DNA of 20,804 nt. It comes from a virus. Below the pieces are notes generated by a model that searched no databases, was not told where the DNA came from, and saw only the letters and a program-made list of their open reading frames with translations. The stretch spans positions 1 to 20,804 of IMG/VR virus record IMGVR_UViG_3300007538_000241; one strand, 5' to 3'. Shown one piece after another: positions 1 to 16,691 of this stretch. Each line of letters starts with the position of its first letter. Position 1 is the first letter of the stretch. The translations under genes were made by a program, and so were the position numbers.

Positions 1-3000
1 CAATCTTGTGCCTGTACTACCATTGAATACCGCAATTTCAACCGGACTTTCAACAACTCCATCAAAACTAAAACCTAATCTGCCGTCGGCTACATAAGCA
101 ACGCTACTTACTTGGAAGCCATGCCCGTCATTATTATAATCATGCCCAGGTTGGGTATACACAGTCATATCTAATGTATCAAAAATTGCTCCTGGCACCA
201 GTTCCTCTGGAGCGTGGGAATTATAAACATCGATGAAATCAGCACCGTCGGCAATAACAGATTCTACATTTGTGTTTGGAGGCGCACCGTCATAAGCAGC
301 AGCTGGCAATGTTCCAAAATAGCTATCGGTAAAGTTAGAAACATACTCAGCATCTAATATTTCTGGACTGTATGTTGGCAATCCTTCTGGGCCAAAATCA
401 ATATTATCCCACGGGTTTACATCAAAGTTACCAACATCAAACCCAGTGTTTTGATCAAATAATGGACCTTTAACTTGTACTCCAGGATAATCAATACCAT
501 CAATTAACAATGCTATATCTAACCCTGGATTGTTTACGTCTGCTACATATAATCCTGAGGTACGGTCTATCCCGCTAAGTGTGTCGGCTGCTACTAACTC
601 ATATAATGCTGGATCAAATTCGGATTCGCTTGCTGTACTACCGTCAGCATTAATAGCACGGTACACCTTATTATTATAACGTACCAATTGATTTTCGTTA
701 TATACTGTATTCGCTTCCCAATCTAAAACTTGCGATTCATATTCATACCGATCGTATCTTAGAACAGTCTTAATACTTCTGACTAATTCGTTTGACATGT
801 ACGCTGTAGCAGTTGCTCCTGTGCCATTTCCTCCAACAAGAGTTACTGTAGGAGTTTCTCTATATCCAATTCCGTCAACCGTTATTTGTATATCAATAAC
901 TTGTCCAACGGAGTTGATTAATGCGATTGCTTCGGCTGCCTGGTCGGCAGTACCGCTAATTACTACACGTGGCGCAACGGTGTAATTTGAACCACTATCT
1001 GTAACTACAATACTGTCTACATTAAGTTTATGGTTATTATACCATGTTGACCACGGACGTACTGCCCATACTGCGTCAGTATCCTGTCTGTTACTAACGT
1101 CGGTTTCTAACAACGCGATGCCGTCGTCTAATATCGGGCTTACAAATTTTTCATATGTTGAATCAAATGCTGCTGGACAATCGTAATCGTATACATTACC
1201 AGATATTGTGTCTAGACCTTCATACGATAACAAAAACTCTTTAACTTTAGTATGATATGGTTTAGATTCGTTGATATAATCTTCGACGAATGTTTGATTA
1301 TCTTTTCTATAAACGTTATACTGTATAAGCTCGCGGACTCGATGTTTAACATCAATTAGTGATGTTTTATACAACCAATCAACTGCCCCGTGCTCTGCTA
1401 GAATGTAGTTAAACACACTGATTAATAATTGATTACGATGGTCTAGAAAATCGCCTACAAATATTTCTTCGTTAATTGCTCGAATAATCTGTCTTGTTTC
1501 GATAACAGGCTGTTGATCAAAATATTGAGCGTCAAATACTTCCGAATCGAATCCGTAACGTCCTGCTGAATAATTCCACAGTTCTTGTTTAAATTCAATT
1601 GTTCCGTCTTCGAGGCCTACACGGGTCCATTCTATATTATTACTCGAATAAACATAAAGTTCCCATTTACCATTACTGTTTAACCTAACCTTAGCTAATG
1701 TACCATCACTAACTGATAACGACAATAATTCACTATAAGTATCGACTGTTAATGATGGTTTTGATAAGTTGGTATACCCTGCTTCATACCAATCAATGTA
1801 GTTCCAATAGTTTGGTGTATTATAATTTTGTACTCTTATTAGTTGTAATGTTTTGTTGTTTTGTACTTCGTAAATTGTCCAGCGACCGTTGTTGTCGCTA
1901 TCTACTCTAACAAGATACTTGTAACCAACATCTACTGTCAATAAATCTTGATAATTTAATTCTTCGAGATCATCAACTCTGGCGTCCCATGCGCCACTTG
2001 CTGCCACTGGTTCTTCTTCTTTACTGGCTAAAATATTAAACGTTCTTAATTCAGCCAATGGGTGGTCAGTTATTAAGCTGTTTGCTTTGTTTATATAAGA
2101 TTTTAACGCAGCATAGCGATCACGGAATAGGCTCTTTCTTGGGCGGAAATCAATCCCATAACGGTCAGTTGGACTCAGTGTTACATCTGGTACTAGATTG
2201 CCAACTGTGTCCGCTCCACAGAAACTATCTTGTAATTTTCTATACAATCCTTCAGGTAAGAAGTCTCTAGAATAATTTTCTCTGATTAAATCATATTCAA
2301 CAAAAATCTTATTGTCTGAGTATGATTGGTTATATTCTACGTGAAGAATGCTTTCATTATTATCGACAATATAATCAGCAGTATTGTATAAAGCGATTAC
2401 ATTTTTTCTAATAAGCGCAGCATACGGAATTCCTGATTGTTGTGGATATTCAATATACGAAGCAATCGTGCTTGGACTTAAAGTTTTTCCTGCGGTTTTA
2501 TTTACAGTTGTATTATTTTTAACCCAGAAATAATACTTAGTAATTACAGTATTTGTTCGATCTACACCCGAAAGTGTTGAATAATTAGTTGTACTTCTAA
2601 CGGTACCCGGTCCAGAATACTGTGATGGCGGTACTAAACTCTCAACCCACTCGTATACTTCAATGATGCTATCTGTAGCAAAAGTACCCCAATTTTTAGC
2701 ACTATATACGATATCGGACTGATTATAATTTATATAACGAGTGTTTGTAGTATCCCACCATAACTTACCAACATGAGCTGAGCTCCAAGTGATGTCTTTA
2801 TTAACAGTTTGGTTATTATATCTAGCTGGGTCATTGGCTCCAGTGTAGTCTAAGTTTTGTTGTACTACTCCTAATAGTTTATTGTTAATCGGATCAATGA
2901 AATCTAAATAAGTGGTTAATTGCGAGTCTGCTGAATTATAAAGATATATAGAGCCGATTAAATCCGTGTCAACAGAATCAGGCTGTTGTTGAATTATTTT

Positions 3001-6000
3001 CCAGGCCTGCTCACGTGTTGGGTTTTCGTAAATAACAATCTCGCCAACATTTTTGGTGTTTGCGTCAGCGCCTGGGCTAGTAATAATTAATAAGTTATCT
3101 GTAAAGTTTACACATTTTCCAAACTTGTCAAGTGGGTCAACTGTTGAATTAATTATTTGCTGTCCAAACACAAATTTGCCTGGAACAGCATAACTTGAAC
3201 TTGGTAATAAATCAAAAGTATATACAGCCCCTGCTTCAACAACGCGATCAATTAGTTTAGTAGCATCGCTATCAAATTCCGTTTCGTCATTGTCAAATGT
3301 TGTTGGTAGATACGACGTTGCTTGCTCAGACCCAACAACTAGATTAGTTGCCGAATAATCAACATGAACGCTACTACCAAATCTACTATACTCTTCTGGT
3401 CGTGGACTTCTAATCACTTGTACATTTACAAATGGTTCCAACCCTAAATCATTGAACGCTGTTCCAATACCTGGCATAACAGTCATTTTACTTAAAGATG
3501 GAGCTTCCTGAGCATTAATTACACTAATTACTAGTTTATTATTAGCTGTTGTTGCGTGTACGTTCGGAATAATAGAGTTATTAATATCATCTACAACTTG
3601 GGATAATGTAGTATTTGTAAAAACTACATCAACATTATTAATACGAATACTATGTCCAACTGTTACAGTTGGGTTTTCGACGGTGCCTGTTATCAACCCA
3701 AACACTCGTGCGCCATTTAAGTAACGAGTTACGCTACCTGCTTCTGGTAATATGTGATGATCGCGAGGAGCACTTACATATAATGAACAATCTGTTCTAC
3801 AAACACTAAGTTGAGATCCAAAGTACGCACCCTGGTTATTATTTAATAGTGTTAATGTTTGTACTAGATTGTAATTGTTAATATCAATATCAATTTTGTC
3901 GCCAACATTTAAATTAACTTCACTGGCAATTTCAACTGAATTTGTTACAGTATTAATAGAATAACTATATCCAATATTATTGATGTTAATCAGTTGTTTT
4001 GTTCCATTTATGTAAACGGAATTTTTATTTGATAAATTTCGCAATGCGGAATAATTTCTTGTTAATGAATCTTCAACTATGCGGCGTTCTACAACCCTTT
4101 CGTATATGAATGTTTTACCTGCGTTGTTTAAACCGTCAAATGATGCTTCTGGCGCAGCAATAATAACTTGTTGTCCATCGCTGGTAGTTGCTACTTTCTC
4201 GCCAAATCTATTAGACCCTAACAACGGACTTGATATTGTGTTTTTGAACATCCAATGATCAGTTGCTCTGAATGATACAGTATCACCATTTGCTGGAGCA
4301 GTGACAAATGTTACATATTGAGTTGCGGTATCAAATGTGTAATCATAATATGGACGTTGTAGTACACCGCCAACATACACACTAAACATTTCAATTGTTT
4401 GCGCTGTGTATAATGTCGATGGGTGTGTATAAACTGTTGTTGATCCATCGCCAGTGGTTTCTACTGCGCTCTTTCTTGTTACTTCAACAATTGATCCAAC
4501 GTCAAGCGAACCAAAGATTTGTAAATTAGTGCCGGTTAACGCATATTCCGACGATGCTTGTATTACGTCGTCAACTGTAACAGTAATTTGTGTAGCGTTA
4601 TTAACTTCTATCAATCCGTCAATATTGTAAATATCAATGCCACCGGTGCTAGTAAAAGTAGCTGTTTGATCTTGATATGTTATTCTTTCATATGCAAAAA
4701 CTTTTTCTGCTGCTGGTGCGCCAACATAAATCCAATTTTCATTTTCGCTAACAACAACGTCAGATCCAAATTGATCTGCTCCTGAAATACTGATTCCATT
4801 TGGGGTAGTTAGGTATTGCCAGGATTGGAATAAATTCTGTGCTGGATTTCTATAAATTACTACAGCAAGACCTTGATTGCTAATGCTTTCATTTGCTCCA
4901 ACCACTGCCCAATTAGTGGACATTGACGCAGAATTACCAAACCCAGCTGCTTTATTTGCCCCTTGCGTGATTAATGCCGAGAATACATATGTATTTTTAT
5001 CTTTGTTGTAGCAGTAAATCGCGCCATCTGCCGATCCTGAGGCATAATCTGGAGCCCCTACTATAAGTCCAGAATCATTAAACCCTTGCGCCAAACTAGC
5101 ACCAAAATTATAGTTTCCAGTTGCGCCTGGAGCGTACTGACGGGTAACTAAATCAAAAGGTGTTGTTTTTTCGTATACTTCCCATTTTCCGTCAATATTA
5201 CCATTGACCCATACACGATCGCCAGCAAGAATATTATTATTATATTCTGTATCAGCAATATCGCTAGGTTGAGAAACCTTAGCTGTTAATAATTTAAATA
5301 CAATCCCCGAGCCTGTAAGTTCAGACACATCTCCATCAAGTGATCCCGAAACTGTAATTGTTTTAACATCAAGAACATCGATTACTCTATGAGTGCCATT
5401 TATTTCTGAATTAAAATATTTGGCAATAATCAAATCATTTTTTACTAAGTTAGTAGTAGCGTCAAATTCTAATGTTAATGTGTTGTTAAGGTTGTCAATC
5501 ACACTAATCAAGGTCGGATCAATAACACTACAACGATAAACATTCCAATTATATTTGTTTTCCTTAGCTACCCATACATAGGCTCCGTCACGAATTAAAT
5601 TTAAATTATTGTTTATTTCTGTTAAATCATTAAGATCATATAGGCTAATGTCAATGTCGTCTTTGTTAACAAACCCAGCAGTCGGTAGTGTTGCGTCAGT
5701 AACTACTTTATTTAAAGTTGGGAAAATATTAATAGTAGAATTTTTAACACTTTGTTTGTAAATACTATTAATGTCTACAAATTGATCAGCATCAGATTCA
5801 GTTCCAAACGCATTAATTTCAATCACCGTTGGATTTGAACTTGTTGAATCCTTATCCAGCGCAACCTCAATGAATCGTTTGTTATCGCTAGCGCCATATG
5901 TAGCACGCCTAACTGCCCAATTTTCATAAATGTCGTATTCTGATGTTTCTTTATCAAATTCAACGCCTTTAAATAGATTTGCGTTCAGTACAGTGCCTTT

Positions 6001-9000
6001 GCCTTCGATTAGATCGCTATACACACTAACCTGACTTATATCGTCGAGGTTTAGACTTTCTAAATATCCTCTTGGTCTAAATCCAATAATACCTAATGCT
6101 AACAAGTCAACATCTGTCTCAAGATTAGCAACACTACTATTGTAGAACTTCGTAATTTGATCTGCTTTAGAGTTGATGTTTGGTAGTAAGCCTTTATTAA
6201 CTAGCTGATAATCAATTTTAGTCCATTGGTCAAAATCAAATTGTTCTTCTGGTTGTATCTTTTTGGCTGCGGTCCAGTATGAATTTTTATACCTAACCAT
6301 ATCGCCTTTGTTATAAGCGTTATTTTGATTCCACTGCGGAACGTTATCTTGGTTTAAGATAAATCCTTGCGCATCAAGCTGTCCGTTCCATTCAAATGTT
6401 GTAAAGCCGTTTATTTTAATACGCTGTTGTCTTAGACCGGTAACTGGTTGATACATCAAGTCATTGAAGATACTAACATTATCTACTACCAGTAAATGTT
6501 CGTAACTGGTATTTCTTAATCGTAGATAACTTAACGACTTGTCTGCCAGTATTGTGATTTTAAAGTTGTTGTCTAGACGTGTAATAGCGTAATCTTTCTT
6601 CTGGAGAACCTGACGATTCTGATCTAACATTTGATCATTTACATCTAAGTCGTTGATATTATCAACCACACTAAATTCTCTATTGTATTGAAGTACATTA
6701 GCAGCAGCATTAAGATTAATTAGACTTCCAACTGTCCAATTCTGGTTGGCCCAGTAAACAAATTCTTGTGCCATACGGCCCCAATCAAGCACGTAATTGT
6801 TCTCTGTATCTTCAAACACAAACCCTGCGGTTTCTAAGAACTTACCATAACTTATTAAGAAATCAACAACACTATTAATGTTCTTAAATGTATACCCGTA
6901 TGGTACCCTTACAACTCGATTAGTAAAACTGTTAGGAATACGAATAGTTGTGCTGCCCACAGTGGCTGTGGTGTAATCACCATTTGTTGTACTTTGTAAT
7001 ATGCGAAAGTATGCTTGAGTGCTGCTATTTCCATAAACAGCAAATCCGTCAACTGTTCGTTGAACCATTACGCTTGAATATTGTACGTCCCCAAATGGTT
7101 GATTTTTATATAATAATAAGCTATAACTTTCATCTGGAATCAATAGGCTTGTATTTGAGCTGTTTGGTGAACTTTTATCAGTGAATATTTTTAAGTAGTT
7201 CTTATCTGTAAATCCAGCCATACGATAACATAGTTTTACATCAACTGAGTTAATGCTATCAATCAATGATTGGCCAGACAGTATGCCTTTGCTTCTATTA
7301 TATTCAATTATCCAATTAATATAACTATTTTTTGGTGTAGTGTCTGAATAAATTTCCGTATTTCTAAAATCTAATCTATAGCGGTTGTCGTAAACATATT
7401 CATTAACTAATGTATTATAGCGGTACCGATCCAGGTCTATGTTTAGAGCGAAGAATTCAGCAGGTTTAGTCAAAGCAAATAATTTTTGTACAACAAACGG
7501 CCAGACACTTGAACGACGCCAAGCTGATTCCACTGGTCCAACATCACCAACTACCCAACTTTTTACAAAGTCTGTTTCATTGTAACTAGAAACTAAGAAC
7601 TCAAAGGGATTGCGTAACTTGCCTGAGCTGGTTACTGGAATAATATTGCTTAAACCTGGTCGAGCATATCGAGCATCATATGTTTCGTCATTTCGATTAT
7701 AGCCGGCTTCCAGGTCGTCCCAGAGAATTTCGTTGCCAGATGTATATGGAGCTGGTCCGTAACGATCTTCCCACCAAGATGGTTTAATAGCAAATCCTAA
7801 CATTTCCCATGGATGCGTATGAGGGCGGTCGGTATCATAATAATATTTGTAAATACCTCTCCAGTGTCCTTTTAAAGGAGTGCTGTCTAACGCACTACCT
7901 GTAGTACTATAATTCCATGTAAACGAGTTATTCGCTCTGTATTCTTGTGTTTTATAATCAATTTTATTCCATCCACACCAATCAAGCATTTCAGCTGACA
8001 GTAACTCAGTTATTTCTACATCCGTGTAATCGGTAGCACGGAATTTACCTGGAATAACATCAGCTAATTTCAACGGAATACTGTCATTTGACAAACTTTT
8101 TAGATTATTGTAAATTCTGCGTTCAAATTCAAGCAATACATAATCTCTAACATCATTGAACCCAATGGTAATACTACCGTCATGCCCTTGTATTACTGTT
8201 TGAGGGGTAACATACGTATCATCGACATATATCTTTGGTTCAAAACGAGCGTATGATCCAATTTTAGTTGGTGTAGGTGGAACAAAATTACCATATGTTG
8301 ACGAGTATTCTCTGACTCTAATTGTATCGCCAACAGAAGGAGTAAACAGTAAGGTGAATCTTGGGCCGTCTGTTGCTACTGTATAATCAAGATCCTTAGT
8401 AAGAATTTCGTTATTATAATAAATTAATAATGCTGAACTATTAGATTTAGTAAAATCATATACATTAATGGTATTAAATGTATCTGTACTTATTGGATTA
8501 ATTGTGTATACAGTTTCTTGATAATCGCCACCAAATGGCACCATGTCACTCCAATAGAAGGCTGTGTCTTTGGTTTTGCCGTGGTTAATACTAGCAAGAG
8601 CAGCATCAAGAATATCGTAATATTCCATGCCATAAGTGTCGTTATTTGCAATCCAGTCAATTATTTGATGCTTAAACTTTTCATATTGTTTTGCACTGTA
8701 TTCCAACGACGCAAAAAAGTCATATTTCTTTTTACGCAAGAAATGTGCCATCGGCGCAACTGGAGCACTATGTTGTACAATAACATCACCATATTTCGCT
8801 ACCGGTCCGAGTTCTTTTAAATTGTTTATTCCGTTAACTTCGCCAGTGAACTCGGTGACATTTTCAATCAATCTGTTATAGTGATTTCTAATAGTTCCTA
8901 ACGTAAATGTGTTTGTATTTTCATTAAAAATATTGCTTTCTAGGTTGCTTGGTATTTCATAATACCCAACACCGCTGGCGGTATCACTAATAACCTTGAT

Positions 9001-11637
9001 TTGTACTGTACTTCCTGTTGCTATTGTAGAATCAAAAGAAATTGTTGTTTTGCCATTGGTAACCGCTGCGGTATAATGAGATGGTAATACAAATTTATTA
9101 TTAGCATATACTTTGATTGCTGGTATAAGCAGGTCAATCTTAGGTGCTATATCAATTACCAATGGGTCACCATTGTAAGTTAACGTAAATACTTGTCTTG
9201 ACCAGTTGCGATCAGCACTGGCTGTCCAGCCAGTTTCTAACGTATAATTGGTTCTAGTAGAATATTGTCTTATAAACCCGGCGCTTACATTTTTGGTAAC
9301 GCTGCTTCCGTCACTGACATAAATGAAATCATCAACATATAGGTTATTTTCAAAAACAATGTCACCTAAGTTATCAATATTAAGATATGTTAAAGGAAAC
9401 TCTAAGACGTAATCATTAATGCCAGTTCCTCTTTTATATGAGAAAAGTTTAGTGCCAGCAAATGTGGTACTCGGATAAACAGAAATGTCACTATAACTAT
9501 AACCATCTGAATCGAATACATCAAATAATGGTTCTTGATTAAGGCTAGTTTTTTGTTGCGCTTCGGCCCACGCAGAACCGGTATATCTATATACTTTTCC
9601 TTGTAGCGTAGCACCGTTAATACAAACTACCGTTTGATCTTCAAGCACAGCAGCGTCCGCTGCTGGAATTAAATTTATAATTTGTCCGTATTCAGTACTA
9701 GCATCATCTGGATCAACAATTTGTACTTCGTAAATCCGATTTCTAACTGTTAGATCATTATCAGCAGCAAAAATAATTCTAGATCCATTGATCAGTTCGT
9801 ACCCATCAACATTGTATCTGGTACTGCCATGTACATTTGACAAAGCATCTGTTTGTGCTAGATCAATGATATCAATAGGACCTTTGCTTTCAGTTCCGTA
9901 ATTATATAAACGTAGTCCTGAATCAAATTCGATAATTGGTCGTTTTGCTCTATTATTGTTATCTAACTCTGCTACTGTGTTATTGTATTCAGCGGTAGCG
10001 TTTAAAACATCAATATGGAACCACCGGTTACTCCTATTCCAAGCATTGTGATCAGTAGCAGAACGCTTAATTGTAATGTAATCTAACCCAGTTGGACTAT
10101 TTAAATTAGCATCATACCCACTGGTGTCAAATGGGCTTAAATCATATTGCTCAGTATCTGTCCGAATGTAATCTTCAGGAGTTACTAAATCAGGAATATA
10201 AACTAATTCAATCGCTGCCCCTACCCCTTCAACGATATATTCTTGATCTTTATATGTGGTTGGGACAGTATCGCTAGCAAATCTAATTCTTAAGCCGTTG
10301 ATAAATGTTACGCCATTGGGACTTGTATAATTTTGTTTACCTACAATATCTTCATCAACATTAATTGCTGGAGTGGTTTCTGAATCAATTAGTCGGATGA
10401 TACCAAACTTTGCAGGATCATTGCCATCTTGATAATATAGTGTATCTTCTATTGCTGTTAATGCTGGTACTTCTTCAAAGAAACCTGAAGCATTCTTAAA
10501 GAATTTCTTGTTAGCGTTTTCTGTACCGTATCCAACTTTAAACACATCGTTAATTTCAATATCGCCAATATTAATTAATTCAATGTAAGCATCGTCATCT
10601 GTGCTACCGTCTGGGCGATAATATGTGATTCTAAACTTAGCATATCGTTGTGCTTTTGTATCTAAATAAGTTGTAGGATCAAACGACTGGTCATCATAAC
10701 TGGATTGCGAATCGTCAAACTTTCCTTCGCGTTGCCAACCTAATTCGGCGCTGTCGCCTTCTTGTGTACTAACAAATACTAGCGTTCTATTTTCTAAATC
10801 TTTGATTCCATCAATGCCGCCAAATTGACTAATATGTTTTCCGTTAATATTGTCAAAACGTTCTGTAGTTACAAAGTCAATAATACCAATATCGTTTAAT
10901 CCGTAATAAAAACTTTGTGCAGTGTTTGTTGGCACGTTAAATGTTATAGTACCAACATCATCACCATTGTTAACAACACCAAGTACATTTCTACTGCTTA
11001 GATTTGGTGAGTAATCAATTGTACCTGATACTCCTGGCTGTGTTTGGATCCAGAAAGGATTTCCTAGTTGGTTAACATTAAACGTATAACTTCCACCTCT
11101 TACTAATGTAATACTTGGATTATCGCCAGCTACTCCACTTAGTTCGTAATAATCACCACTACGATCTACATTAAAAGAATCAACGGTAGCAACTGTGCCT
11201 GATTGTACATCAACTGCTGTTGGTGATGCCGGCACCCAATAATACTGGCTGTAGTTAATAAACTTATCAAAATCAATATGCGGATCCCAACTATATGTTT
11301 CGCTGGCAAATAAGCGATCAGCACGAGTTACATTAGCACCTTCGACAGCTAATCCGTCGACCATACCTACGTATGTAATAGCATCTTCTGTTTTATTATC
11401 GCTGTTATTGAATACAACGCCTGGCTCAAATTGATAATTTGCTCTCGATAGTGTTGGTTCTATTAGATAACCGTCGGTATAATTGGTACCTGGCCCAAAT
11501 CTACGGCCAATATATCCTTCGGTACGTTTTAGTTTTGGTGCTTGTATTAATTGATCAAGTGTCGCGCTGAAAAATTCACGGTTAATGTCAGTTTTAAAAA
11601 TTTCTGGTAAAAAATCTATTGAACGAATACGTGCCAT
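1..11637 (-). CDS. Giant modular baseplate/tail structural protein (C-terminus outside window)
   Basis: The frame opens at ATG 11637 and has no stop down to base 1, giving at least 3879 codons. The ATG lies 6 nt after the gp6 stop, with only a weak G-rich Shine-Dalgarno (GGGGTATAACAATAA before ATG). The N-terminus (MARIRSIDFLPEIFKTDI, then GYIGRRFGP, EPGVVF and DFDKFINYSQYYW by about residue 130) matches my recollection of large virion proteins encoded near gp6 in marine T4-like phages. Domains in order: cupredoxin-like (158-238), three tail-fibre-type beta modules (840-1150), a conserved aromatic block (1260-1313), a CBM5/12-like motif (1766-1791), two WxVY modules (2017-2158), seven FG-GAP-like repeats (2178-2870), two more WxVY-type modules (3236-3330), KPYHTKVKEF (3459-3468), GxGY repeats (3538-3605), a second CBM-like motif (3640-3662) and SHAPEELVPG (3807-3816). 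No signal peptide or membrane segment is evident. Position suggests an outer wedge component replacing T4 gp7/gp8/gp10 functions plus receptor contact; that is inference. The gene is certain, the virion role very likely, the precise role unknown. Confidence 0.9.
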   Translation of the reverse strand, partial: MARIRSIDFLPEIFKTDINREFFSATLDQLIQAPKLKRTEGYIGRRFGPGTNYTDGYLIEPTLSRANYQFEPGVVFNNSDNKTEDAITYVGMVDGLAVEGANVTRADRLFASETYSWDPHIDFDKFINYSQYYWVPASPTAVDVQSGTVATVDSFNVDRSGDYYELSGVAGDNPSITLVRGGSYTFNVNQLGNPFWIQTQPGVSGTIDYSPNLSSRNVLGVVNNGDDVGTITFNVPTNTAQSFYYGLNDIGIIDFVTTERFDNINGKHISQFGGIDGIKDLENRTLVFVSTQEGDSAELGWQREGKFDDSQSSYDDQSFDPTTYLDTKAQRYAKFRITYYRPDGSTDDDAYIELINIGDIEINDVFKVGYGTENANKKFFKNASGFFEEVPALTAIEDTLYYQDGNDPAKFGIIRLIDSETTPAINVDEDIVGKQNYTSPNGVTFINGLRIRFASDTVPTTYKDQEYIVEGVGAAIELVYIPDLVTPEDYIRTDTEQYDLSPFDTSGYDANLNSPTGLDYITIKRSATDHNAWNRSNRWFHIDVLNATAEYNNTVAELDNNNRAKRPIIEFDSGLRLYNYGTESKGPIDIIDLAQTDALSNVHGSTRYNVDGYELINGSRIIFAADNDLTVRNRIYEVQIVDPDDASTEYGQIINLIPAADAAVLEDQTVVCINGATLQGKVYRYTGSAWAEAQQKTSLNQEPLFDVFDSDGYSYSDISVYPSTTFAGTKLFSYKRGTGINDYVLEFPLTYLNIDNLGDIVFENNLYVDDFIYVSDGSSVTKNVSAGFIRQYSTRTNYTLETGWTASADRNWSRQVFTLTYNGDPLVIDIAPKIDLLIPAIKVYANNKFVLPSHYTAAVTNGKTTISFDSTIATGSTVQIKVISDTASGVGYYEIPSNLESNIFNENTNTFTLGTIRNHYNRLIENVTEFTGEVNGINNLKELGPVAKYGDVIVQHSAPVAPMAHFLRKKKYDFFASLEYSAKQYEKFKHQIIDWIANNDTYGMEYYDILDAALASINHGKTKDTAFYWSDMVPFGGDYQETVYTINPISTDTFNTINVYDFTKSNSSALLIYYNNEILTKDLDYTVATDGPRFTLLFTPSVGDTIRVREYSSTYGNFVPPTPTKIGSYARFEPKIYVDDTYVTPQTVIQGHDGSITIGFNDVRDYVLLEFERRIYNNLKSLSNDSIPLKLADVIPGKFRATDYTDVEITELLSAEMLDWCGWNKIDYKTQEYRANNSFTWNYSTTGSALDSTPLKGHWRGIYKYYYDTDRPHTHPWEMLGFAIKPSWWEDRYGPAPYTSGNEILWDDLEAGYNRNDETYDARYARPGLSNIIPVTSSGKLRNPFEFLVSSYNETDFVKSWVVGDVGPVESAWRRSSVWPFVVQKLFALTKPAEFFALNIDLDRYRYNTLVNEYVYDNRYRLDFRNTEIYSDTTPKNSYINWIIEYNRSKGILSGQSLIDSINSVDVKLCYRMAGFTDKNYLKIFTDKSSPNSSNTSLLIPDESYSLLLYKNQPFGDVQYSSVMVQRTVDGFAVYGNSSTQAYFRILQSTTNGDYTTATVGSTTIRIPNSFTNRVVRVPYGYTFKNINSVVDFLISYGKFLETAGFVFEDTENNYVLDWGRMAQEFVYWANQNWTVGSLINLNAAANVLQYNREFSVVDNINDLDVNDQMLDQNRQVLQKKDYAITRLDNNFKITILADKSLSYLRLRNTSYEHLLVVDNVSIFNDLMYQPVTGLRQQRIKINGFTTFEWNGQLDAQGFILNQDNVPQWNQNNAYNKGDMVRYKNSYWTAAKKIQPEEQFDFDQWTKIDYQLVNKGLLPNINSKADQITKFYNSSVANLETDVDLLALGIIGFRPRGYLESLNLDDISQVSVYSDLIEGKGTVLNANLFKGVEFDKETSEYDIYENWAVRRATYGASDNKRFIEVALDKDSTSSNPTVIEINAFGTESDADQFVDINSIYKQSVKNSTINIFPTLNKVVTDATLPTAGFVNKDDIDISLYDLNDLTEINNNLNLIRDGAYVWVAKENKYNWNVYRCSVIDPTLISVIDNLNNTLTLEFDATTNLVKNDLIIAKYFNSEINGTHRVIDVLDVKTITVSGSLDGDVSELTGSGIVFKLLTAKVSQPSDIADTEYNNNILAGDRVWVNGNIDGKWEVYEKTTPFDLVTRQYAPGATGNYNFGASLAQGFNDSGLIVGAPDYASGSADGAIYCYNKDKNTYVFSALITQGANKAAGFGNSASMSTNWAVVGANESISNQGLAVVIYRNPAQNLFQSWQYLTTPNGISISGADQFGSDVVVSENENWIYVGAPAAEKVFAYERITYQDQTATFTSTGGIDIYNIDGLIEVNNATQITVTVDDVIQASSEYALTGTNLQIFGSLDVGSIVEVTRKSAVETTGDGSTTVYTHPSTLYTAQTIEMFSVYVGGVLQRPYYDYTFDTATQYVTFVTAPANGDTVSFRATDHWMFKNTISSPLLGSNRFGEKVATTSDGQQVIIAAPEASFDGLNNAGKTFIYERVVERRIVEDSLTRNYSALRNLSNKNSVYINGTKQLININNIGYSYSINTVTNSVEIASEVNLNVGDKIDIDINNYNLVQTLTLLNNNQGAYFGSQLSVCRTDCSLYVSAPRDHHILPEAGSVTRYLNGARVFGLITGTVENPTVTVGHSIRINNVDVVFTNTTLSQVVDDINNSIIPNVHATTANNKLVISVINAQEAPSLSKMTVMPGIGTAFNDLGLEPFVNVQVIRSPRPEEYSRFGSSVHVDYSATNLVVGSEQATSYLPTTFDNDETEFDSDATKLIDRVVEAGAVYTFDLLPSSSYAVPGKFVFGQQIINSTVDPLDKFGKCVNFTDNLLIITSPGADANTKNVGEIVIYENPTREQAWKIIQQQPDSVDTDLIGSIYLYNSADSQLTTYLDFIDPINNKLLGVVQQNLDYTGANDPARYNNQTVNKDITWSSAHVGKLWWDTTNTRYINYNQSDIVYSAKNWGTFATDSIIEVYEWVESLVPPSQYSGPGTVRSTTNYSTLSGVDRTNTVITKYYFWVKNNTTVNKTAGKTLSPSTIASYIEYPQQSGIPYAALIRKNVIALYNTADYIVDNNESILHVEYNQSYSDNKIFVEYDLIRENYSRDFLPEGLYRKLQDSFCGADTVGNLVPDVTLSPTDRYGIDFRPRKSLFRDRYAALKSYINKANSLITDHPLAELRTFNILASKEEEPVAASGAWDARVDDLEELNYQDLLTVDVGYKYLVRVDSDNNGRWTIYEVQNNKTLQLIRVQNYNTPNYWNYIDWYEAGYTNLSKPSLTVDTYSELLSLSVSDGTLAKVRLNSNGKWELYVYSSNNIEWTRVGLEDGTIEFKQELWNYSAGRYGFDSEVFDAQYFDQQPVIETRQIIRAINEEIFVGDFLDHRNQLLISVFNYILAEHGAVDWLYKTSLIDVKHRVRELIQYNVYRKDNQTFVEDYINESKPYHTKVKEFLLSYEGLDTISGNVYDYDCPAAFDSTYEKFVSPILDDGIALLETDVSNRQDTDAVWAVRPWSTWYNNHKLNVDSIVVTDSGSNYTVAPRVVISGTADQAAEAIALINSVGQVIDIQITVDGIGYRETPTVTLVGGNGTGATATAYMSNELVRSIKTVLRYDRYEYESQVLDWEANTVYNENQLVRYNNKVYRAINADGSTASESEFDPALYELVAADTLSGIDRTSGLYVADVNNPGLDIALLIDGIDYPGVQVKGPLFDQNTGFDVGNFDVNPWDNIDFGPEGLPTYSPEILDAEYVSNFTDSYFGTLPAAAYDGAPPNTNVESVIADGADFIDVYNSHAPEELVPGAIFDTLDMTVYTQPGHDYNNDGHGFQVSSVAYVADGRLGFSFDGVVESPVEIAVFNGSTGTRL
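190..219 (-). other. SHAPEELVPG motif near the left edge
   Basis: Residues 3807-3816 (SHAPEELVPG), followed by FDTLDMTVYT. From memory this is a recurrent motif of phage giant structural proteins and usually lies inside, not at the end of, the polypeptide. That agrees with the frame staying open at base 1. Confidence 0.45.
652..720 (-). other. CBM5/12-like aromatic motif, copy 2
   Basis: Residues 3640-3662: W-E-x(4)-Y-N-E-N-Q-L-V-R-Y-N-N-K-V-Y-R-A (W3640, Y3646, Y3659). It has the same layout as the motif at 6265-6342, about 1870 residues apart, except that the glycine of GD is replaced. This too suggests a surface glycan contact. Confidence 0.5.
823..1026 (-). repeat. Two GxGY/GxNY beta repeats in the giant protein
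   Basis: Residues 3538-3605 hold two copies of V-x-[VI]-x(3)-G-x-[GN]-Y-x(3)-P-x-V-x-[IL]-x-G: VVTDSGSNYTVAPRVVISG and ITVDGIGYRETPTVTLVGG. The second is followed by NGTGATATA. This pattern is common in phage and bacterial surface proteins as paired beta hairpins. No specific function is assigned. Confidence 0.55.
1234..1380 (-). other. Conserved DWLYKTSLIDV ... KPYHTKVKEF block
   Basis: Residues about 3420-3468 hold DWLYKTSLIDV, a polar helical stretch, then YINESKPYHTKVKEF. From memory this pairing recurs near the C-terminal part of giant structural proteins in marine T4-like phages, so it probably marks a shared structural domain. Function unknown. Confidence 0.45.
1648..1707 (-). repeat. 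W-x-V-Y module, copy 4 (WELY)
   Basis: Residues 3311-3330: DGTLAKVRLNSNGKWELYVY. It is the fourth copy, about 75 residues after copy 3, and is followed by a second W (IEWTRVG) like the copy-3 tail (LQLIRVQ). Confidence 0.5.
1864..1932 (-). repeat. W-x-V-Y module, copy 3 (WTIY)
   Basis: Residues 3236-3258: VGYKYLVRVDSDNNGRWTIY followed by EVQ. It matches the copies at 5530-5589 and 5164-5226, but lies about 370 residues after the last propeller blade. Confidence 0.5.
3463..3675 (-). other. Insertion between blades 5 and 6 with FliD-like IN motif
   Basis: Residues about 2655-2725 read TVTVGHSIRINNVDVVFT, then VVDDINNSIIPNVHATT and NKLVISV, and end at GTAFNDLGL. The pattern (IxINxxxVxF, a D-I-N helix, V-x-A, a K-L-x-I-S strand) resembles the IN-motif repeats of flagellar cap and hook-associated proteins, and similar segments occur in phage tail proteins. 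Likely a surface-exposed insertion domain; assigned by pattern only. Confidence 0.4.
3874..4584 (-). repeat. Three tail-fibre-type modules inserted between propeller blades
   Basis: Residues 2352-2388 (ITVTVDDVIQASSEYALTG ... VGSIVEVT) and 2420-2458 (VYVGGVLQRPYYDYTFDT ... VTFVTAPANGDTVSFRA) lie between blades 3 and 4. Residues 2540-2587 (VYINGTKQ ... VNLNVGDKIDIDI) lie between blades 4 and 5. They share the pattern of the copies at 8080-9120. The second copy is nearest the classical tail-fibre form (GVLQxPxxDYT ... APAxGDTV). Insertion into blade loops would place them on one face of the propeller. Confidence 0.55.
5164..5226 (-). repeat. W-x-V-Y module, copy 2
   Basis: Residues 2138-2158: AGDRVWVNGNIDGKWEVYEK. 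Same pattern as the copy at 5530-5589, about 120 residues further on, and immediately upstream of the first FG-GAP-like repeat (residue 2178). The pair may form a lead-in domain to the propeller; that is inference. Confidence 0.5.
5530..5589 (-). repeat. W-x-V-Y module, copy 1
   Basis: Residues 2017-2036: DGAYVWVAKENKYNWNVYR. The pattern is [DA]G-x(1,4)-[VA]-x-V-x(4,8)-W-x-[VIL]-Y. It is one of four protein-level copies in the giant protein and lies ahead of the propeller. Confidence 0.5.
6265..6342 (-). other. CBM5/12-like aromatic motif, copy 1
   Basis: Residues 1766-1791 read as W-N-x(4)-Y-N-x-GD-x-V-x-Y-x-N-x-Y-W-x-A (W1769, Y1775, GDMVRYKNSYW ending at W1788). This is the spacing of chitin/carbohydrate-binding modules of families 5 and 12 (W....Y..GD.V.Y.G..Y.A). 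Such modules in tail proteins usually contact surface glycans. It is short and assigned by motif only. Confidence 0.5.
7699..7860 (-). other. Conserved aromatic block (HPWEMLGF ... PSWWEDRYGPAPYTSG)
   Basis: Residues 1260-1313 contain YYYDTDRPHTHPWEMLGF, KPSWWEDRYGPAPYTSG and NEILWDDLEAG. The density of Trp, Tyr, His and Pro is much above that of the surroundings and suggests a tightly conserved surface or structural core. From memory, similar blocks occur in large structural proteins of marine T4-like phages. It matches no enzyme motif I know. Confidence 0.5.
8080..9120 (-). repeat. Three tail-fibre-type beta modules in the giant protein
   Basis: Three protein-level copies of a module of about 40 residues lie at residues 840-883 (IKVYANNKFVLPSHYT ... 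TTISFDST ... GSTVQIKV), 1070-1113 (LLIYYNNEILTKDLDYT ... FTLLFTPSVGDTIRV) and about 1130-1170 (KIYVDDTYVTPQTVIQG ... SITIGFND). The pattern is a strand, an N/D-rich turn, [DS]xYT, a strand, then GDxIxV. It resembles the small beta domain of phage tail-fibre proteins (VYxNGxLLxxGxDYT ... APAAGDxI). Copies are diverged, with no obvious DNA-level repeat. Role as spacer or attachment module is inference. Confidence 0.5.
10924..11166 (-). other. Degenerate cupredoxin-like beta-sandwich in the giant protein
   Basis: Residues about 158-238 show the pattern SITLVRGGSYTFNV, NPFWIQT, VLGVVNNGDDVGTITFNVP and SFYYGLN. This is the strand order of the plastocyanin-like domains often found in marine phage structural proteins (YTFxV, HPFxIxT, GVxNNGxxxGTITFxVP, YYxCxxH). 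Here the usual histidine is replaced (NPF for HPF) and YYGLN stands where a YYxCxxH ligand loop would be. The fold may be kept without copper binding. Assigned by pattern only. Confidence 0.5.
11188..11637 (-). other. Conserved N-terminal domain of the giant protein
   Basis: Residues 1-150 carry closely spaced motifs: DFLPEIFKTDINREFF, ATLDQLIQAP, GYIGRRFGPG, DGYLIEP, RANYQFEPGVVF and WDPHIDFDKFINYSQYYW. From memory, this arrangement recurs at the start of large structural proteins of marine T4-like phages, so it is probably the part that docks to gp6 and the wedge. The docking role is inference from gene order; no catalytic motif is seen. Confidence 0.6.
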
Positions 11638-11643
11638 TTATTG

Positions 11644-14600
11644 TTATACCCCGTTAGAAAGTCTTAGTTGGCTTGCGGTTAGCGAGTCGATTACTTGTAC
11701 ATCGTTAACTGTTGCGGCACTAACGAAAATTTCGTTAGGTGCTGATTTAATTTCATATAAGTCACCAAAGTTCTTTGATGTATCCTTTGGAAGGATCACA
11801 ACAGATCCTAAGATACTACCAAGTTGTTCATGAATGTAAGCTGATAGCTCTGAGAAGTAGAAAGTATCACCAAAATCCCAATTATCAATGTCAAAATAAT
11901 TATTAATAGCTTCAATTACACGACTTTTAATCTCGCTGGTACTTACTACACTATTTTGTAACTTAACTACTTTAATATAAGCTCTTAATGAGCTGTCGGC
12001 TTTGTCGCCAAACAATGGCTTAAACTTAACACTATTAAAAATAATATTATCGCTGATCATTTTATAATCATTGAGTGTTTCATATAGCTCAGATAATTCA
12101 TCAGTTGTAGGTTGATCCGGTTCTGTGATGCTACCAGTGGTATCTTGAACATAGCGTCTGTATGACTCATAATACGTTGAAGTCGCAACAAACAGATCAA
12201 CAATATTTGTTGACCCTGGGTTGATACGGCGTGTTTCAGGACTGTTATGTTTATATTGGAACTGTAGACCACCACGACCAGTATGTGTTCTATAGTCAGT
12301 AACAGCACTTACTGTTCTAACATTACTTGCGCTAACTGATAATACATAAAAAGCGTCTTCTGTTGAAGCATAAAACACCTGTCCATCTGGATACTCGTCT
12401 TTGACAAGATTAATATCGCTTAGTGAACCATAATTTGAATTAATAACTCCTACCGCTAACGGAAGATATCTTTCAAGATTATCAAAATCAACGGTTCTTT
12501 GAAAGAAAACCAACTTTGATGTAGGATTCGTAGTTGGATTAACTATAGCATTAAAAAAGTCTGGATCGTCAGGAACATTATCATTATCTGAATCTGCCCA
12601 ACTAACTTCTACATTAAAATCATTTACAAATCCATCGGTTTCAACAGTTTGTCCTATAATATCAAGCGCAACATCTCCAATTAACGGAGAATTACTATCG
12701 GCTTGACTATTTGTTTTTAATACTTTGACAAAATCGTTAACTGTGCGGCCTGTTTTTGGATCGTAAATTGCTCTATTGCCATCATAAAAGAATCGAGTTT
12801 CTTGTACGCTTGAAAAATAATAAGATAACCCTCTAACAGTTACAGTATATACTGATCCATCGTTGACAAATTTAACCAGCCAACTAGCATCTAAATTAGT
12901 GTTTGAAGTATCTCCGGCATAAGCGAACGAAAAATCACTGTCGGCATCTAAATTGTTTGAACTAATAATATGCCATGTTCCGTTTTCGTTATCGAATCTT
13001 AATCCAAATGATCTATATAGCTCAATTTGTTCAAGCATACTTTGTTCTAAAGTAACAGGTAAATCAGAATTTAAAATCGGAATAACCTGATTAGCTATTG
13101 CTCCTGTTGGAACGTAATTATTAATAGTAACAGGACCGATACCGTTGACGTCGTTTCCTGCGCCAGCATTCGTTCCGTCATTGAGCAAACCTTGAATACT
13201 AGCCCAGATATAACTTCTTTCTTCTGGACCAGTTGGTGTTCCTGTTTGTAATCTGTTATCTTTATCAAAATACTGTCCTGCTGGAGCAGTAAATTTAACC
13301 AAACACCCAGATACTAAATGTTGTCTGGCATCGCCTAACCCGGCACCAATGGAAACAGTTGCTCCAATATCGTTTTTAAAGTACCCGGTAGTTTCGTTAA
13401 CTAGTGTTGTACTGCGTTCCCAATACATTCCTAGGCTTAATAAGCTGTAACGTGTAAATTTATTGTAGTAAAAATGTAATATGCTTCTGTCAGCTAACAA
13501 AGGTTCTAATTGATTTCTAATGGCGCTTTCGATATCATTACTATCAACAAAAGTAAAATTAAAATTTCTTTCTTTTATTTCTTCATATAAAATACCATCA
13601 CTGGCAAACGAATTAACACTTGAATATTTTCCAGTTGGATCTACTAGATCAATATATCTACTGGTTCCAATATTGGTGCGATTAACTGCTTTACTTTTAA
13701 TGATACTGGTAAATTGGCTGTATGGGAAATTATTATAATCTTCGCCATTGACCATTCTATTCTGTGTGTAAAAGCGAGCTGGTGCGCGGCGTTTGATGTC
13801 TGCTAGCGTTTCTCTAGCACGACTGTTGCTTACATTTTCTTGCAATCCTAATGTGAATATAAGATTTTCAATGCGGCCTTTGCGACTTACATAAGAGACA
13901 GTAACGTCGACACTTTGAATTTCGTTTGGGTTAATTATATATTCCAGACCATTTGAGCTGCGAACATACACACGGAATGTGCCCACTGGAATTTCAGAAA
14001 ACACTCCGTCACCAAAATTTAATGTAATTTGATCTAATGATCTGCTGGATACACTAAACAACTTTCTGTTTGCCCCAACCTCTTGAACTCGGCTACTTCC
14101 GTAGATATTACTAACTTCTGTCCATACTTCTTCGATATCGCCAGTTGTAGAATTGACTTTGTATAACCAAATATCGGTACTATTAATTCCGTCGATATTA
14201 ATATCAACAGTTCTATTAGAAATCTTTTCGTTTAGATTAAAGTCTCTTGATTGTAACGCACCTTGTTTAAAACTAAAAAAGTAGCCGGTGTTAGTACTTC
14301 CAAACCCTAACCCATCATCTCTATATAATAGATTCAAGTCACCATTGATCTTTGGTGCTGGCTCGTATACATAAGTCTTATTAACACTGGTTGCGCTTAT
14401 TACTTCAAACGACATTGGAATTCCATCAACAGTCGCGTTAAATGGAATGGCTGGAACAACCCCAGATGCTAAATTAATGGTATATTCACTGGTATTGATA
14501 TCTAGAATGGATGCTTTGTTTCCAGGATTTCCTACGGTCTGACTATTAACCAGCGCAGCATTAATGATAGCTTTAAATTGTTCTTGCCAGTCTGGATTAG

Positions 14601-15042
14601 TACGATCGTTCCATTTGATAGTTACATTTGAAAGATTATTTCTATTGTAATCAAGAACTCCTTCGGTTGTTCTAACAGCAGTTACTTTTAAATAACCTTT
14701 AGCAGTTTGGTTACGTTTTGGTGTGTATCCAATTAATTTTGATAGATTAACTACGGAATCACGACGTTCTGCTGTATCTAAAAAGTTTTCGCGGCTATTT
14801 AAGTCTACACGAAATGACAATGACTGGCCCATAAAAGCCATTAGGTCAAGCAATGCTACAAATTCACTAGATTCAACAAAGTCGTTAAAACTTTCTGGAT
14901 AATATTGGCGCAGATAATCTACGAATGTTTTACGTAATGTTTCAAAGTTGTAACTTTGAAAGTCTGCTTCTCTATAAGTTTGATAGATTCGTTTCCAATC
15001 TTCAATACCAAAAATAGTAGTCTGACGTGAAGTTGTAGCCAT
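11644..15042 (-). CDS. 6: Baseplate wedge protein gp6 (T4-like, enlarged)
   Basis: This 1132-residue protein is the gp6 wedge subunit, which forms the inner ring of the T4-type baseplate and binds gp25 and gp53. The first 110 residues give the assignment: an aromatic start (WKRIYQTY), then LRKTFVDYLRQYYPESFNDF, SSEFVALLDLMAFMGQSLSF, RVDLNSRENFLDTAERRDS and LSKLIGYTPKR, all typical of gp6. A baseplate J-like core follows at about 410-460 (DIKRRAPARFYTQNRMVNGE). The C-terminus keeps the usual RVIEAINNYFDIDN, WDFGDTFYFSELSAYIHEQL and a late VVILP strand (about 1041-1085). T4 gp6 is about 660 residues, so roughly 470 extra residues lie in the middle, with many beta-rich stretches such as the region near 700-850. 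The start has AAGAG 9 nt upstream and follows a candidate late promoter. Gp25 lies immediately upstream, the usual T4-like neighbour. Confidence 0.95.
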   Translation of the reverse strand: MATTSRQTTIFGIEDWKRIYQTYREADFQSYNFETLRKTFVDYLRQYYPESFNDFVESSEFVALLDLMAFMGQSLSFRVDLNSRENFLDTAERRDSVVNLSKLIGYTPKRNQTAKGYLKVTAVRTTEGVLDYNRNNLSNVTIKWNDRTNPDWQEQFKAIINAALVNSQTVGNPGNKASILDINTSEYTINLASGVVPAIPFNATVDGIPMSFEVISATSVNKTYVYEPAPKINGDLNLLYRDDGLGFGSTNTGYFFSFKQGALQSRDFNLNEKISNRTVDINIDGINSTDIWLYKVNSTTGDIEEVWTEVSNIYGSSRVQEVGANRKLFSVSSRSLDQITLNFGDGVFSEIPVGTFRVYVRSSNGLEYIINPNEIQSVDVTVSYVSRKGRIENLIFTLGLQENVSNSRARETLADIKRRAPARFYTQNRMVNGEDYNNFPYSQFTSIIKSKAVNRTNIGTSRYIDLVDPTGKYSSVNSFASDGILYEEIKERNFNFTFVDSNDIESAIRNQLEPLLADRSILHFYYNKFTRYSLLSLGMYWERSTTLVNETTGYFKNDIGATVSIGAGLGDARQHLVSGCLVKFTAPAGQYFDKDNRLQTGTPTGPEERSYIWASIQGLLNDGTNAGAGNDVNGIGPVTINNYVPTGAIANQVIPILNSDLPVTLEQSMLEQIELYRSFGLRFDNENGTWHIISSNNLDADSDFSFAYAGDTSNTNLDASWLVKFVNDGSVYTVTVRGLSYYFSSVQETRFFYDGNRAIYDPKTGRTVNDFVKVLKTNSQADSNSPLIGDVALDIIGQTVETDGFVNDFNVEVSWADSDNDNVPDDPDFFNAIVNPTTNPTSKLVFFQRTVDFDNLERYLPLAVGVINSNYGSLSDINLVKDEYPDGQVFYASTEDAFYVLSVSASNVRTVSAVTDYRTHTGRGGLQFQYKHNSPETRRINPGSTNIVDLFVATSTYYESYRRYVQDTTGSITEPDQPTTDELSELYETLNDYKMISDNIIFNSVKFKPLFGDKADSSLRAYIKVVKLQNSVVSTSEIKSRVIEAINNYFDIDNWDFGDTFYFSELSAYIHEQLGSILGSVVILPKDTSKNFGDLYEIKSAPNEIFVSAATVNDVQVIDSLTASQLRLSNGV

Positions 15043-15099: not shown

Positions 15100-15474
15100 T
15101 TATACAATATTTACTGTGTTGGTTTCTTCGTTAAATTCTACCCAGACCGTTTCAGGATTTCTATTTGGATTAATAGTTACATTTAATTCTAGTACGACTG
15201 TGTGTTCATCAGTTGTTACTACCACATCATTTAACGTAAGACGTAAATCATATCGTGTAACACGTTCTAGCTCTTTAGTTATTTTTCTAATTAAATCTGG
15301 AGTTCTGGCTTCAAAGATAAAGTTCCAAATACGGGTACCTACATCAGGCTTACCTGGTAGTTCTCCTTCTCTAATAGACAACAGATTAAGAAGATTACGT
15401 TTAACTAACTCGTTGTCAGTTACTGTAAACTTTTTATATCTGTCGATTGTACTAAATCCTTTAAAGCGTGCCAT
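15100..15474 (-). CDS. 25: Baseplate wedge / sheath-initiation protein gp25
   Basis: This 124-residue protein has the size and motif of gp25, the small conserved wedge protein that starts sheath polymerisation; its relatives include TssE of type VI secretion. The signature loop is at residues 35-50 (REGELPGKPDVGTRIW), corresponding to the family's GE-x(2)-xP-x-FGT stretch. A helix (PDLIRKITKELERVTRYD, 59-76) and beta strands (DVVVTTDEHTVVLELNVT) follow, as in the family fold. The start codon lies 5 nt after the previous stop and has no recognisable Shine-Dalgarno (TTGGTATAAAAATT before ATG), so translation is probably coupled to the upstream gene. The short C-terminal tail ends in NTVNIV. Confidence 0.93.
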   Translation of the reverse strand: MARFKGFSTIDRYKKFTVTDNELVKRNLLNLLSIREGELPGKPDVGTRIWNFIFEARTPDLIRKITKELERVTRYDLRLTLNDVVVTTDEHTVVLELNVTINPNRNPETVWVEFNEETNTVNIV

Positions 15475-15479
15475 AATTT

Positions 15480-16691
15480 TTATACCAATGTTAGACCATT
15501 ACTATTATTTACTGTTTTACAGGTCCAAGTTCCGCCGGCGTCTTCGCATTCTGCTTTTGTTGGTCCAATAAGTGTTGGATCAGAACACGAACATACTTCA
15601 ATTGAACCTGTTGTTCCAGAAAAAGAATCTTTTAAATTACTTAATGACGGTAGTTGGAAATTAGTAGCACTTACAATACCTGTATAGTTAGGAGCTGCTA
15701 CTTTACTGTTTCCAATTAAACTGTTCACTACAGTATCAATGCCGTCTCTTTTAACGGTTTGTGTTACCGCTGGTGGTGTTACTGTTGTTGGCCCACCACC
15801 ACCGCCAAATAATCCACCTAATCCGCCAAGGAGGCCACCAAGCGCACCACCGAGAGCCCCTAACGCACCTCCTAGCACACTGCTTAATGCATCTGAAACA
15901 CCACCGATTAAATTACCAGCAACATCACTAACAGCACTAATACCACCAATGCTTCCTGCTATTTCACTTAAACTACCACTTAATGTTCCAGACACGTTTC
16001 CTAATAGATCACCAGTTCCAGATGTAAACATACTTGTTAGTTTAGTATCAACAAAATCCACAGAAAAGCCGGCGCCACGTGCGACTGTATCTAAACTTAG
16101 AGAATTTACTGCGCTTAATCCCTCGCCTAATACATTTCCAGCGGCTGACCCTCCAGGAACAGTTCCTAACCAATCAGCAGTGGTACCAACTCCAAAATCA
16201 GAAGCTACGCTTGTAATACTCGCAACTACGTTTGGCGATTCAAATCCTGAAATAATGTTTGATGATTTAAGATCAGCTAAGCTATTTCCCATTATTTCTG
16301 TGGACATTGTTGTTTGGACCGCGCTATTGCCGAGAACATCGTTAACAGAATTAATAGCATCTTTTCCGGTCCAAACACTAGAACTGTTTAGTACATTAGA
16401 AATTTGTCCTGGGTCATCCAAAAATCTATCTACTGTTCCAGCCTTTAAAAAGCCAGCATTTTCAAGTGCGCTAGGAGTTAAATTATATTTTCCAACTCCA
16501 CCAGTAAGTAAATTATTTGGAGCGTTAATTCTACTAGTCATTTCGTCGATTGAAAGACTGTTAGAACTAGCTACTGTTTTGGCTTTTTGCGCAAGTACTG
16601 TACCAAGCTGGTCGGTGCTCATTGAACCAACAGTCGATGTTACTCGATCTTGTATCGCTAAATCGTTGACATTAACTCCTAAGATAGCCAT
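15480..16691 (-). CDS. Unknown baseplate-module protein with glycine-zipper segment and four-Cys tail
   Basis: I do not recognise a named family for this 403-residue protein. Its ATG overlaps the gp5 stop (TAATG), with AGGAG 13 nt upstream, so it is co-translated with gp5. Residues about 66-115 contain GKYNLTPSALENAGFLKAGT and WTGKDAINSVNDVL; from memory, similar LExxGxLKPGT ... WTGK patterns occur in other marine phage tail proteins. Residues 130-270 are rich in Ser, Gly, Val and Leu. Residues 272-300 are a Gly/Leu/Ala run (GGALGALGGALGGLLGGLGG) with GxxxG spacing. The only four cysteines are at the end (367, 369, 382, 391): CSCSDP, then AECEDAGGTWTC, which could bind a metal or form disulfides. 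No PAAR repeat or enzyme motif is seen. Its place between spike and gp25 suggests a virion role, possibly spike tip, plug or wedge accessory; this is inference. Confidence 0.8.
   Translation of the reverse strand: MAILGVNVNDLAIQDRVTSTVGSMSTDQLGTVLAQKAKTVASSNSLSIDEMTSRINAPNNLLTGGVGKYNLTPSALENAGFLKAGTVDRFLDDPGQISNVLNSSSVWTGKDAINSVNDVLGNSAVQTTMSTEIMGNSLADLKSSNIISGFESPNVVASITSVASDFGVGTTADWLGTVPGGSAAGNVLGEGLSAVNSLSLDTVARGAGFSVDFVDTKLTSMFTSGTGDLLGNVSGTLSGSLSEIAGSIGGISAVSDVAGNLIGGVSDALSSVLGGALGALGGALGGLLGGLGGLFGGGGGPTTVTPPAVTQTVKRDGIDTVVNSLIGNSKVAAPNYTGIVSATNFQLPSLSNLKDSFSGTTGSIEVCSCSDPTLIGPTKAECEDAGGTWTCKTVNNSNGLTLV
15792..15878 (-). repeat. Glycine-zipper-like low-complexity stretch
   Basis: Codons for residues 272-300 encode an almost unbroken alternation of Gly pairs with Leu, Ala and Phe, ending in GGLFGGGGG and then P-T-T-V-T-P-P. 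Codon choice varies between units, so this is a protein-level repeat and not a simple DNA tandem repeat. GxxxGxxxG spacing is typical of tightly packed or membrane-active helices. Confidence 0.6.

Follow-up and report, generated by a model that had tools for sequence, protein, structure and literature searches.

The 20,804-nt stretch of viral DNA analysed here (the window) carries on its minus strand, beside genes of baseplate type, a giant open frame with seven FG-GAP-like repeats. This raises two questions: whether the repeats close a single propeller and, if so, what such a propeller would do on the virion. A sequence-only reading had placed FG units at residues 2178, 2233, 2290, 2478, 2606, 2753 and 2839, within positions 3028-5115 of the window (residues 2175-2870 of the protein), and all seven are found exactly there. 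All features of the window described below lie on this strand.

The FG units and their predicted fold

With the motif FG-x(8-15)-hydrophobic pair-[VIASTG][GSA][AVSEP], seven units are counted in residues 2150-2900 and none in the remaining 3128 residues of the giant protein, while in 20,000 shuffles of the propeller region the count averages 0.11, with a maximum of 3. As this motif was composed after the repeats had been seen, the independent tests, namely Pfam FG-GAP_2 and conservation, weigh more. Against an FG-GAP_2 (PF14312) cut-off of 23 bits, the complete protein reaches 33.9 bits and residues 2110-2960 alone reach 46.9 bits; 18 of the 19 homologues scanned match the family. At each of the seven FG positions, at least 65 of 72 homologues have F or Y in the first column, and at least 65 have G in the second. 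The profiles of the seven units also align with one another, nearly all in register, the pairs 2-4 and 2-5 being weak. The GxP ending ascribed to the units turns out to be loose: the seven read GAP, GAN, GAP, AAP, SAP, GSE and TSP.

Calcium loops (DxDxDGxxD) are found in none of the 72 homologues. The sequence-only reading was thus right about their absence, but its corollary, that the ring would be stabilised differently, describes no peculiarity: we take units of the PF14312 type to be free of calcium loops as a rule, and since this is normal for the subtype, a special replacement need not be assumed. The repeats are of this calcium-loop-free FG-GAP_2 type, an already known subtype. Lacking these loops, the propeller does not strictly qualify as a homologue of integrin alpha, yet it belongs to the same fold class.

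The AlphaFold2 model of the window propeller, built on a 72-sequence alignment, has a pLDDT of 90.5 and a pTM of 0.88. Each FG opens an A-B-C-D set of strands, giving seven four-stranded blades, and residues 2162-2168, a strand that precedes the first FG, stand where blade 7 would have its outer strand. A second model, of homologue L031, which has smaller inserts, shows the identical seven strand sets (pLDDT 88.4, pTM 0.89); the alignments behind the two models share most rows, so they are not fully independent. The closure of the ring by the N-terminal strand is read from the strand order, the confidence scores and the seven-bladed targets, and both the strand order and the alignment with integrins are compatible with it.

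When the L031 model is compared with the PDB by Foldseek, the best 20 matches belong without exception to integrin alpha (lowest E 2.4e-11), and the alignments with chains of 440-452 aa span the whole model at a TMt of about 0.54-0.60. Integrin alpha chains also rank first among solved structures for the window model, and nearly all of the best solved matches are propellers of this type. The TM-scores do not rise beyond about 0.6 even for the propeller part, for which the inserts are partly responsible. A profile search of PDB sequences leads to the same family, with integrin alpha-4 as the best match (E=0.0037); a single-sequence search of the PDB gives no match. An enzymatic propeller of the sialidase type was considered and dropped, as integrins come out on top in Foldseek and no match to an enzyme family exceeds its cut-off.

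The spacing of the FG units in the window is irregular (55 to 188 aa), which would suit a protein with separate or fewer blades, some FG turns in non-equivalent positions and no single ring. We regard such an arrangement as very improbable. Among the 72 homologues, the spacing is near-constant for the pairs 1-2 (median 55 aa), 2-3 (median 56 aa) and 6-7 (median 88 aa), and it varies widely for 3-4 (52-409 aa), 4-5 (115-223 aa) and 5-6 (145-269 aa). This irregularity is accounted for by inserts between strands C and D, and in L099, which lacks the insert, the distance is reduced to 52 aa. Moreover, both models give the same seven A-B-C-D sets, with the FG turns in equivalent blade positions. 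All together, two high-confidence models, the strand order, the Foldseek matches and the unit-to-unit profile matches uphold the single seven-bladed integrin-type propeller first suggested from the repeats, and we predict with high confidence that residues 2158-2877 fold as one seven-bladed FG-GAP_2 (integrin-alpha-type) beta-propeller, most probably a closed one.

The best solved structural match of the phage propeller is thus the integrin alpha propeller (alpha-5, alpha-V, alpha-4), with which it has in common seven FG-GAP blades and, as far as the strand order predicts, an N-terminal strand closing blade 7. It differs in being without DxDxDGxxD loops, at 10-13% identity, in bearing domains in the C-D loops of blades 3-5, and in sitting inside a phage structural protein. 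Compared with the Pfam FG-GAP_2 family as such, the phage units are arranged as a ring, bear large inserts and belong to a protein of more than 4400 aa.

Blades, inserts and loops

The propeller cassette (residues 2158-2877) occupies positions 3007-5166; its junctions were read from homologue comparison, and the AlphaFold2 model and module lengths are further evidence for it. The N-terminal 'velcro' strand (5134-5154), found by DSSP in the models, is assigned to blade 7 by analogy with integrin alpha. The blades were placed from the FG positions and the AlphaFold2 model. Blades 1 (4969-5106) and 2 (4810-4941) are plain four-stranded units, the latter containing the best Pfam FG-GAP_2 stretch, and blade 7 (3025-3123), seen in both models, provides strands A-C, while its outer strand would be contributed by the N-terminus of the cassette.

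Blades 3 (4231-4770), 4 (3853-4206) and 5 (3412-3822) each carry an insert between strands C and D. The insert of blade 3 (residues 2320-2460; 4258-4680), delimited by the model, a Pfam scan and homologue comparison, comprises two apparent beta domains of the phage-fibre 'V.VNG..Q...DY' type; the inserts of blades 4 (residues 2521-2580; 3898-4077) and 5 (residues 2642-2735; 3433-3714) were delimited from the model. Among relatives, neither the number nor the kind of the inserts in blades 3-5 is constant. L099 has a bare blade 3, with its FG units 52 aa apart, and L103 and L109 have other sequences in this blade. Phage_T7_tail (PF03906, the N-terminal domain of the T7 tail fibre) matches the inserts of three members (best E=4.3e-7). 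The insert of blade 5 is weakly like the flagellin hook IN motif (PF07196, E=0.0048 in L029, below the curated cut-off). Judged from these sequence comparisons, the blades are sockets for exchangeable domains.

Two loop regions are conserved. In the A-B hairpin of blade 5, a C-x3-C motif (residues 2613-2617; 3787-3801), each Cys of which is present in 88% of the 72 homologues, is possibly a disulfide or a metal site. Blade 6 (3154-3381) has an enlarged B-C loop that holds three T-x-F-D repeats (residues 2779-2797; 3247-3303; consensus TTFDxxTTxFDxxSTxFxD), with D2789 invariant in the 72 homologues. This likely represents a fixed contact or a metal site. It is the most conserved loop of the propeller and resembles a constant internal contact more than a site for a receptor. 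Variability is higher in the D-A loops than in the A-B loops (entropy 2.70 versus 1.97, p=6e-5 with neighbouring columns counted as independent). Integrins bind their ligands with the D-A loop face.

A cassette in a giant virion protein

The propeller sits in an open frame of 3879 aa (1-11637) that runs off the end of the window; in longer copies of the same contig (L003/L008) it reaches 4414 aa. The protein matches the virion structural protein family PHROG 10938 (E=1.8e-303), and on the minus strand it follows genes for a gp5-like hub or tail lysozyme-family protein (16691-18199; PHROG 13211, E=5.5e-33), a gp25-like baseplate wedge subunit (15100-15474; PHROG 43, E=1.4e-12) and a gp6-like baseplate wedge subunit (11644-15042; PHROG 10646, E=3.4e-282). 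Its gene lies directly downstream of the gp6-like gene, which is the position of gp7 in T4. The scaffold profile shows no similarity to T4 gp6, gp7, gp8, gp9 or gp10 (hhalign probabilities of at most 4.3%, with single sequences on the T4 side) and no meaningful match in the PDB. The assignment to the wedge region is thus sustained by gene order, that is, by the adjoining gp6-, gp25- and gp5-like genes, but finds no echo in profile likeness to T4 gp6-gp10.

Two further features were observed in this region. A chitin-binding type CBM_5_12 match lies towards the C-terminus of the giant protein (residues 3640-3669; 631-720), with two stretches giving 35.8 bits against a Pfam cut-off of 26.2. Between the gp25-like and gp5-like genes, a 403-aa tail protein (15480-16691) contains a long stretch of Gly, Leu and Ala (GGALGALGGALGGLLGGLGGLFGGGGG) and is rich in Cys at its C-terminus (CSCSDPT...CEDAGGTWTC).

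Searches with the conserved scaffold (residues 854-1764) found 29 homologous loci at first and then at least 596, all in viral contigs, several of them on contigs of about 340 kb, which indicates jumbo phages. The propeller module is present in 85 of the 88 homologues that could be measured, a sample that favours near relatives. In the other three (L009, L035 and L038), a short linker replaces residues 2158-2877; L035 and L038 run across it from the conserved '..VYQK' to '..W....EE..VDV', and L009 does so less tightly. Members L097-L109, which appeared propeller-less by phmmer, were counted as propeller-bearing, as their sequences show the FG units in the same order. In L009, L035 and L038 the propeller is absent as a whole, with clean junctions, as befits a self-contained cassette. 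In a tree built on a strict alignment of residues 854-1764, the three form one clade (100/100) nested among propeller-bearing phages (nodes 95/81 and 100/99), for which one loss is the simplest reading, and we consider that the propeller was probably lost in this clade.

Of 81 comparisons with the window as reference, 74 show lower conservation in the cassette than in either flank; identity to the window is 37% for the cassette and 41% and 46% for the flanks, a modest gap measured against one reference only.

The giant virion proteins of Paride/PA5oct, RaK2, SCTP-2 and Atu_ph07 have a scaffold homologous to that of the window protein, and those of Paride, RaK2 and Atu_ph07 adjoin baseplate wedge genes as well. 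Here the likeness ends: the propeller profile has no match at E<=10 in Paride, Atu_ph07, SCTP-2 or RaK2, whose branches are long. The window propeller has no match in cultured phage records, and the module of one homologue matches them solely through its C-terminal flank. In the Atu_ph07 protein (L111, 10072-23418), about 870 aa (residues ~2298-3168) lie between two flank matches; a Pfam scan of this stretch finds no FG-GAP, and another module may occupy the propeller's site.

A possible host-contact head

Although the fold is predicted with confidence, several roles could be served by it. The main rival to a host-contact head is a structural job for the same propeller, as a docking platform holding the tail fibres or linking neighbouring wedges. 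The strong conservation of the T-x-F-D loop in blade 6 and of the module termini, the resemblance of some members' inserts to the virion-attachment domain of the T7 tail fibre, and the position of the gene beside wedge genes would all suit such a platform. Yet the whole propeller is missing in the nested sister clade while the flanks are still conserved, it goes undetected in four cultured relatives, and its inserts vary in number and kind between relatives. The baseplate thus works without the propeller, and we hold a docking platform to be unlikely, if a serious competitor. That loss leaves the flanking scaffold visibly unchanged could also be expected if the propeller were a spacer or a decoration that binds nothing in particular and, for instance, stabilises the giant protein; its retention in 85 of 88 homologues across deep branches points to selection, and makes this quite unlikely.

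A dispensable module of conserved fold and variable decoration, in a protein of the baseplate side, is best fitted by an accessory host-contact head. A predicted receptor-binding head is made plausible by the loss of the cassette, the exchangeable inserts and the variable loops of the top face, and a receptor- or surface-binding head is the role that we infer as the best supported. We therefore propose a model in which the cassette, inserted in one loop of a giant virion protein whose gene adjoins jumbo myophage wedge genes, would be sealed as a ring by its N-terminal strand in blade 7, would carry small beta-domains in the C-D loops of blades 3, 4 and 5, and would project from the rim of the baseplate, an accessory head touching a glycan or a protein of the host surface, its specificity being supplied by the inserted domains and the D-A loops. 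As a whole, this model is our best explanation, with a probability of roughly 0.6. For its adhesive part the chances would be about even. The repeats, the fold with its blade count, the cassette character, the loss in one clade and the variable inserts are computational results, and exposure on the virion, binding and the nature of the ligand are inferred.

Related folds have been known in phages. In jumbo phages of the Atu_ph07 type, integrin-like propellers make up 'hemagglutinin' proteins of their own, and other propellers are found in phage nozzles. The stand-alone Atu_ph07 'hemagglutinin' is likewise a predicted integrin-like propeller (BFVD match A0A2L0UZX4, 393 aa, TMt 0.71), and gp213 of Sinorhizobium phage AP-J-162 has been likened to human integrin 3VI3 (PMC11242549); these are separate small proteins, whereas here the propeller is a cassette within a giant baseplate-adjacent protein. 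Beta-propellers have also been reported in the nozzle proteins of T7 and SU10 and in a structural protein of phAss-1; in the available part of that source they are located in the nozzle and in a capsid-annotated protein, and are not described as FG-GAP (PMC10607447). A limited full-text search of open-licence papers found no description of an FG-GAP propeller in a phage baseplate protein.

More generally, many uncultured jumbo phages might bear, within the giant protein encoded next to their wedge genes, an integrin-like host-contact head with exchangeable blade-plugged domains, which would bind receptors separately from the tail fibres, a proposal that we advance tentatively. Residues 2158-2877 make up a defined, expressible cassette, and natural propeller-less relatives exist for testing its binding. 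If the proposal is true, a large group of environmental jumbo phages would have, besides any fibres, an integrin-like module for adhesion at the baseplate side of the virion.
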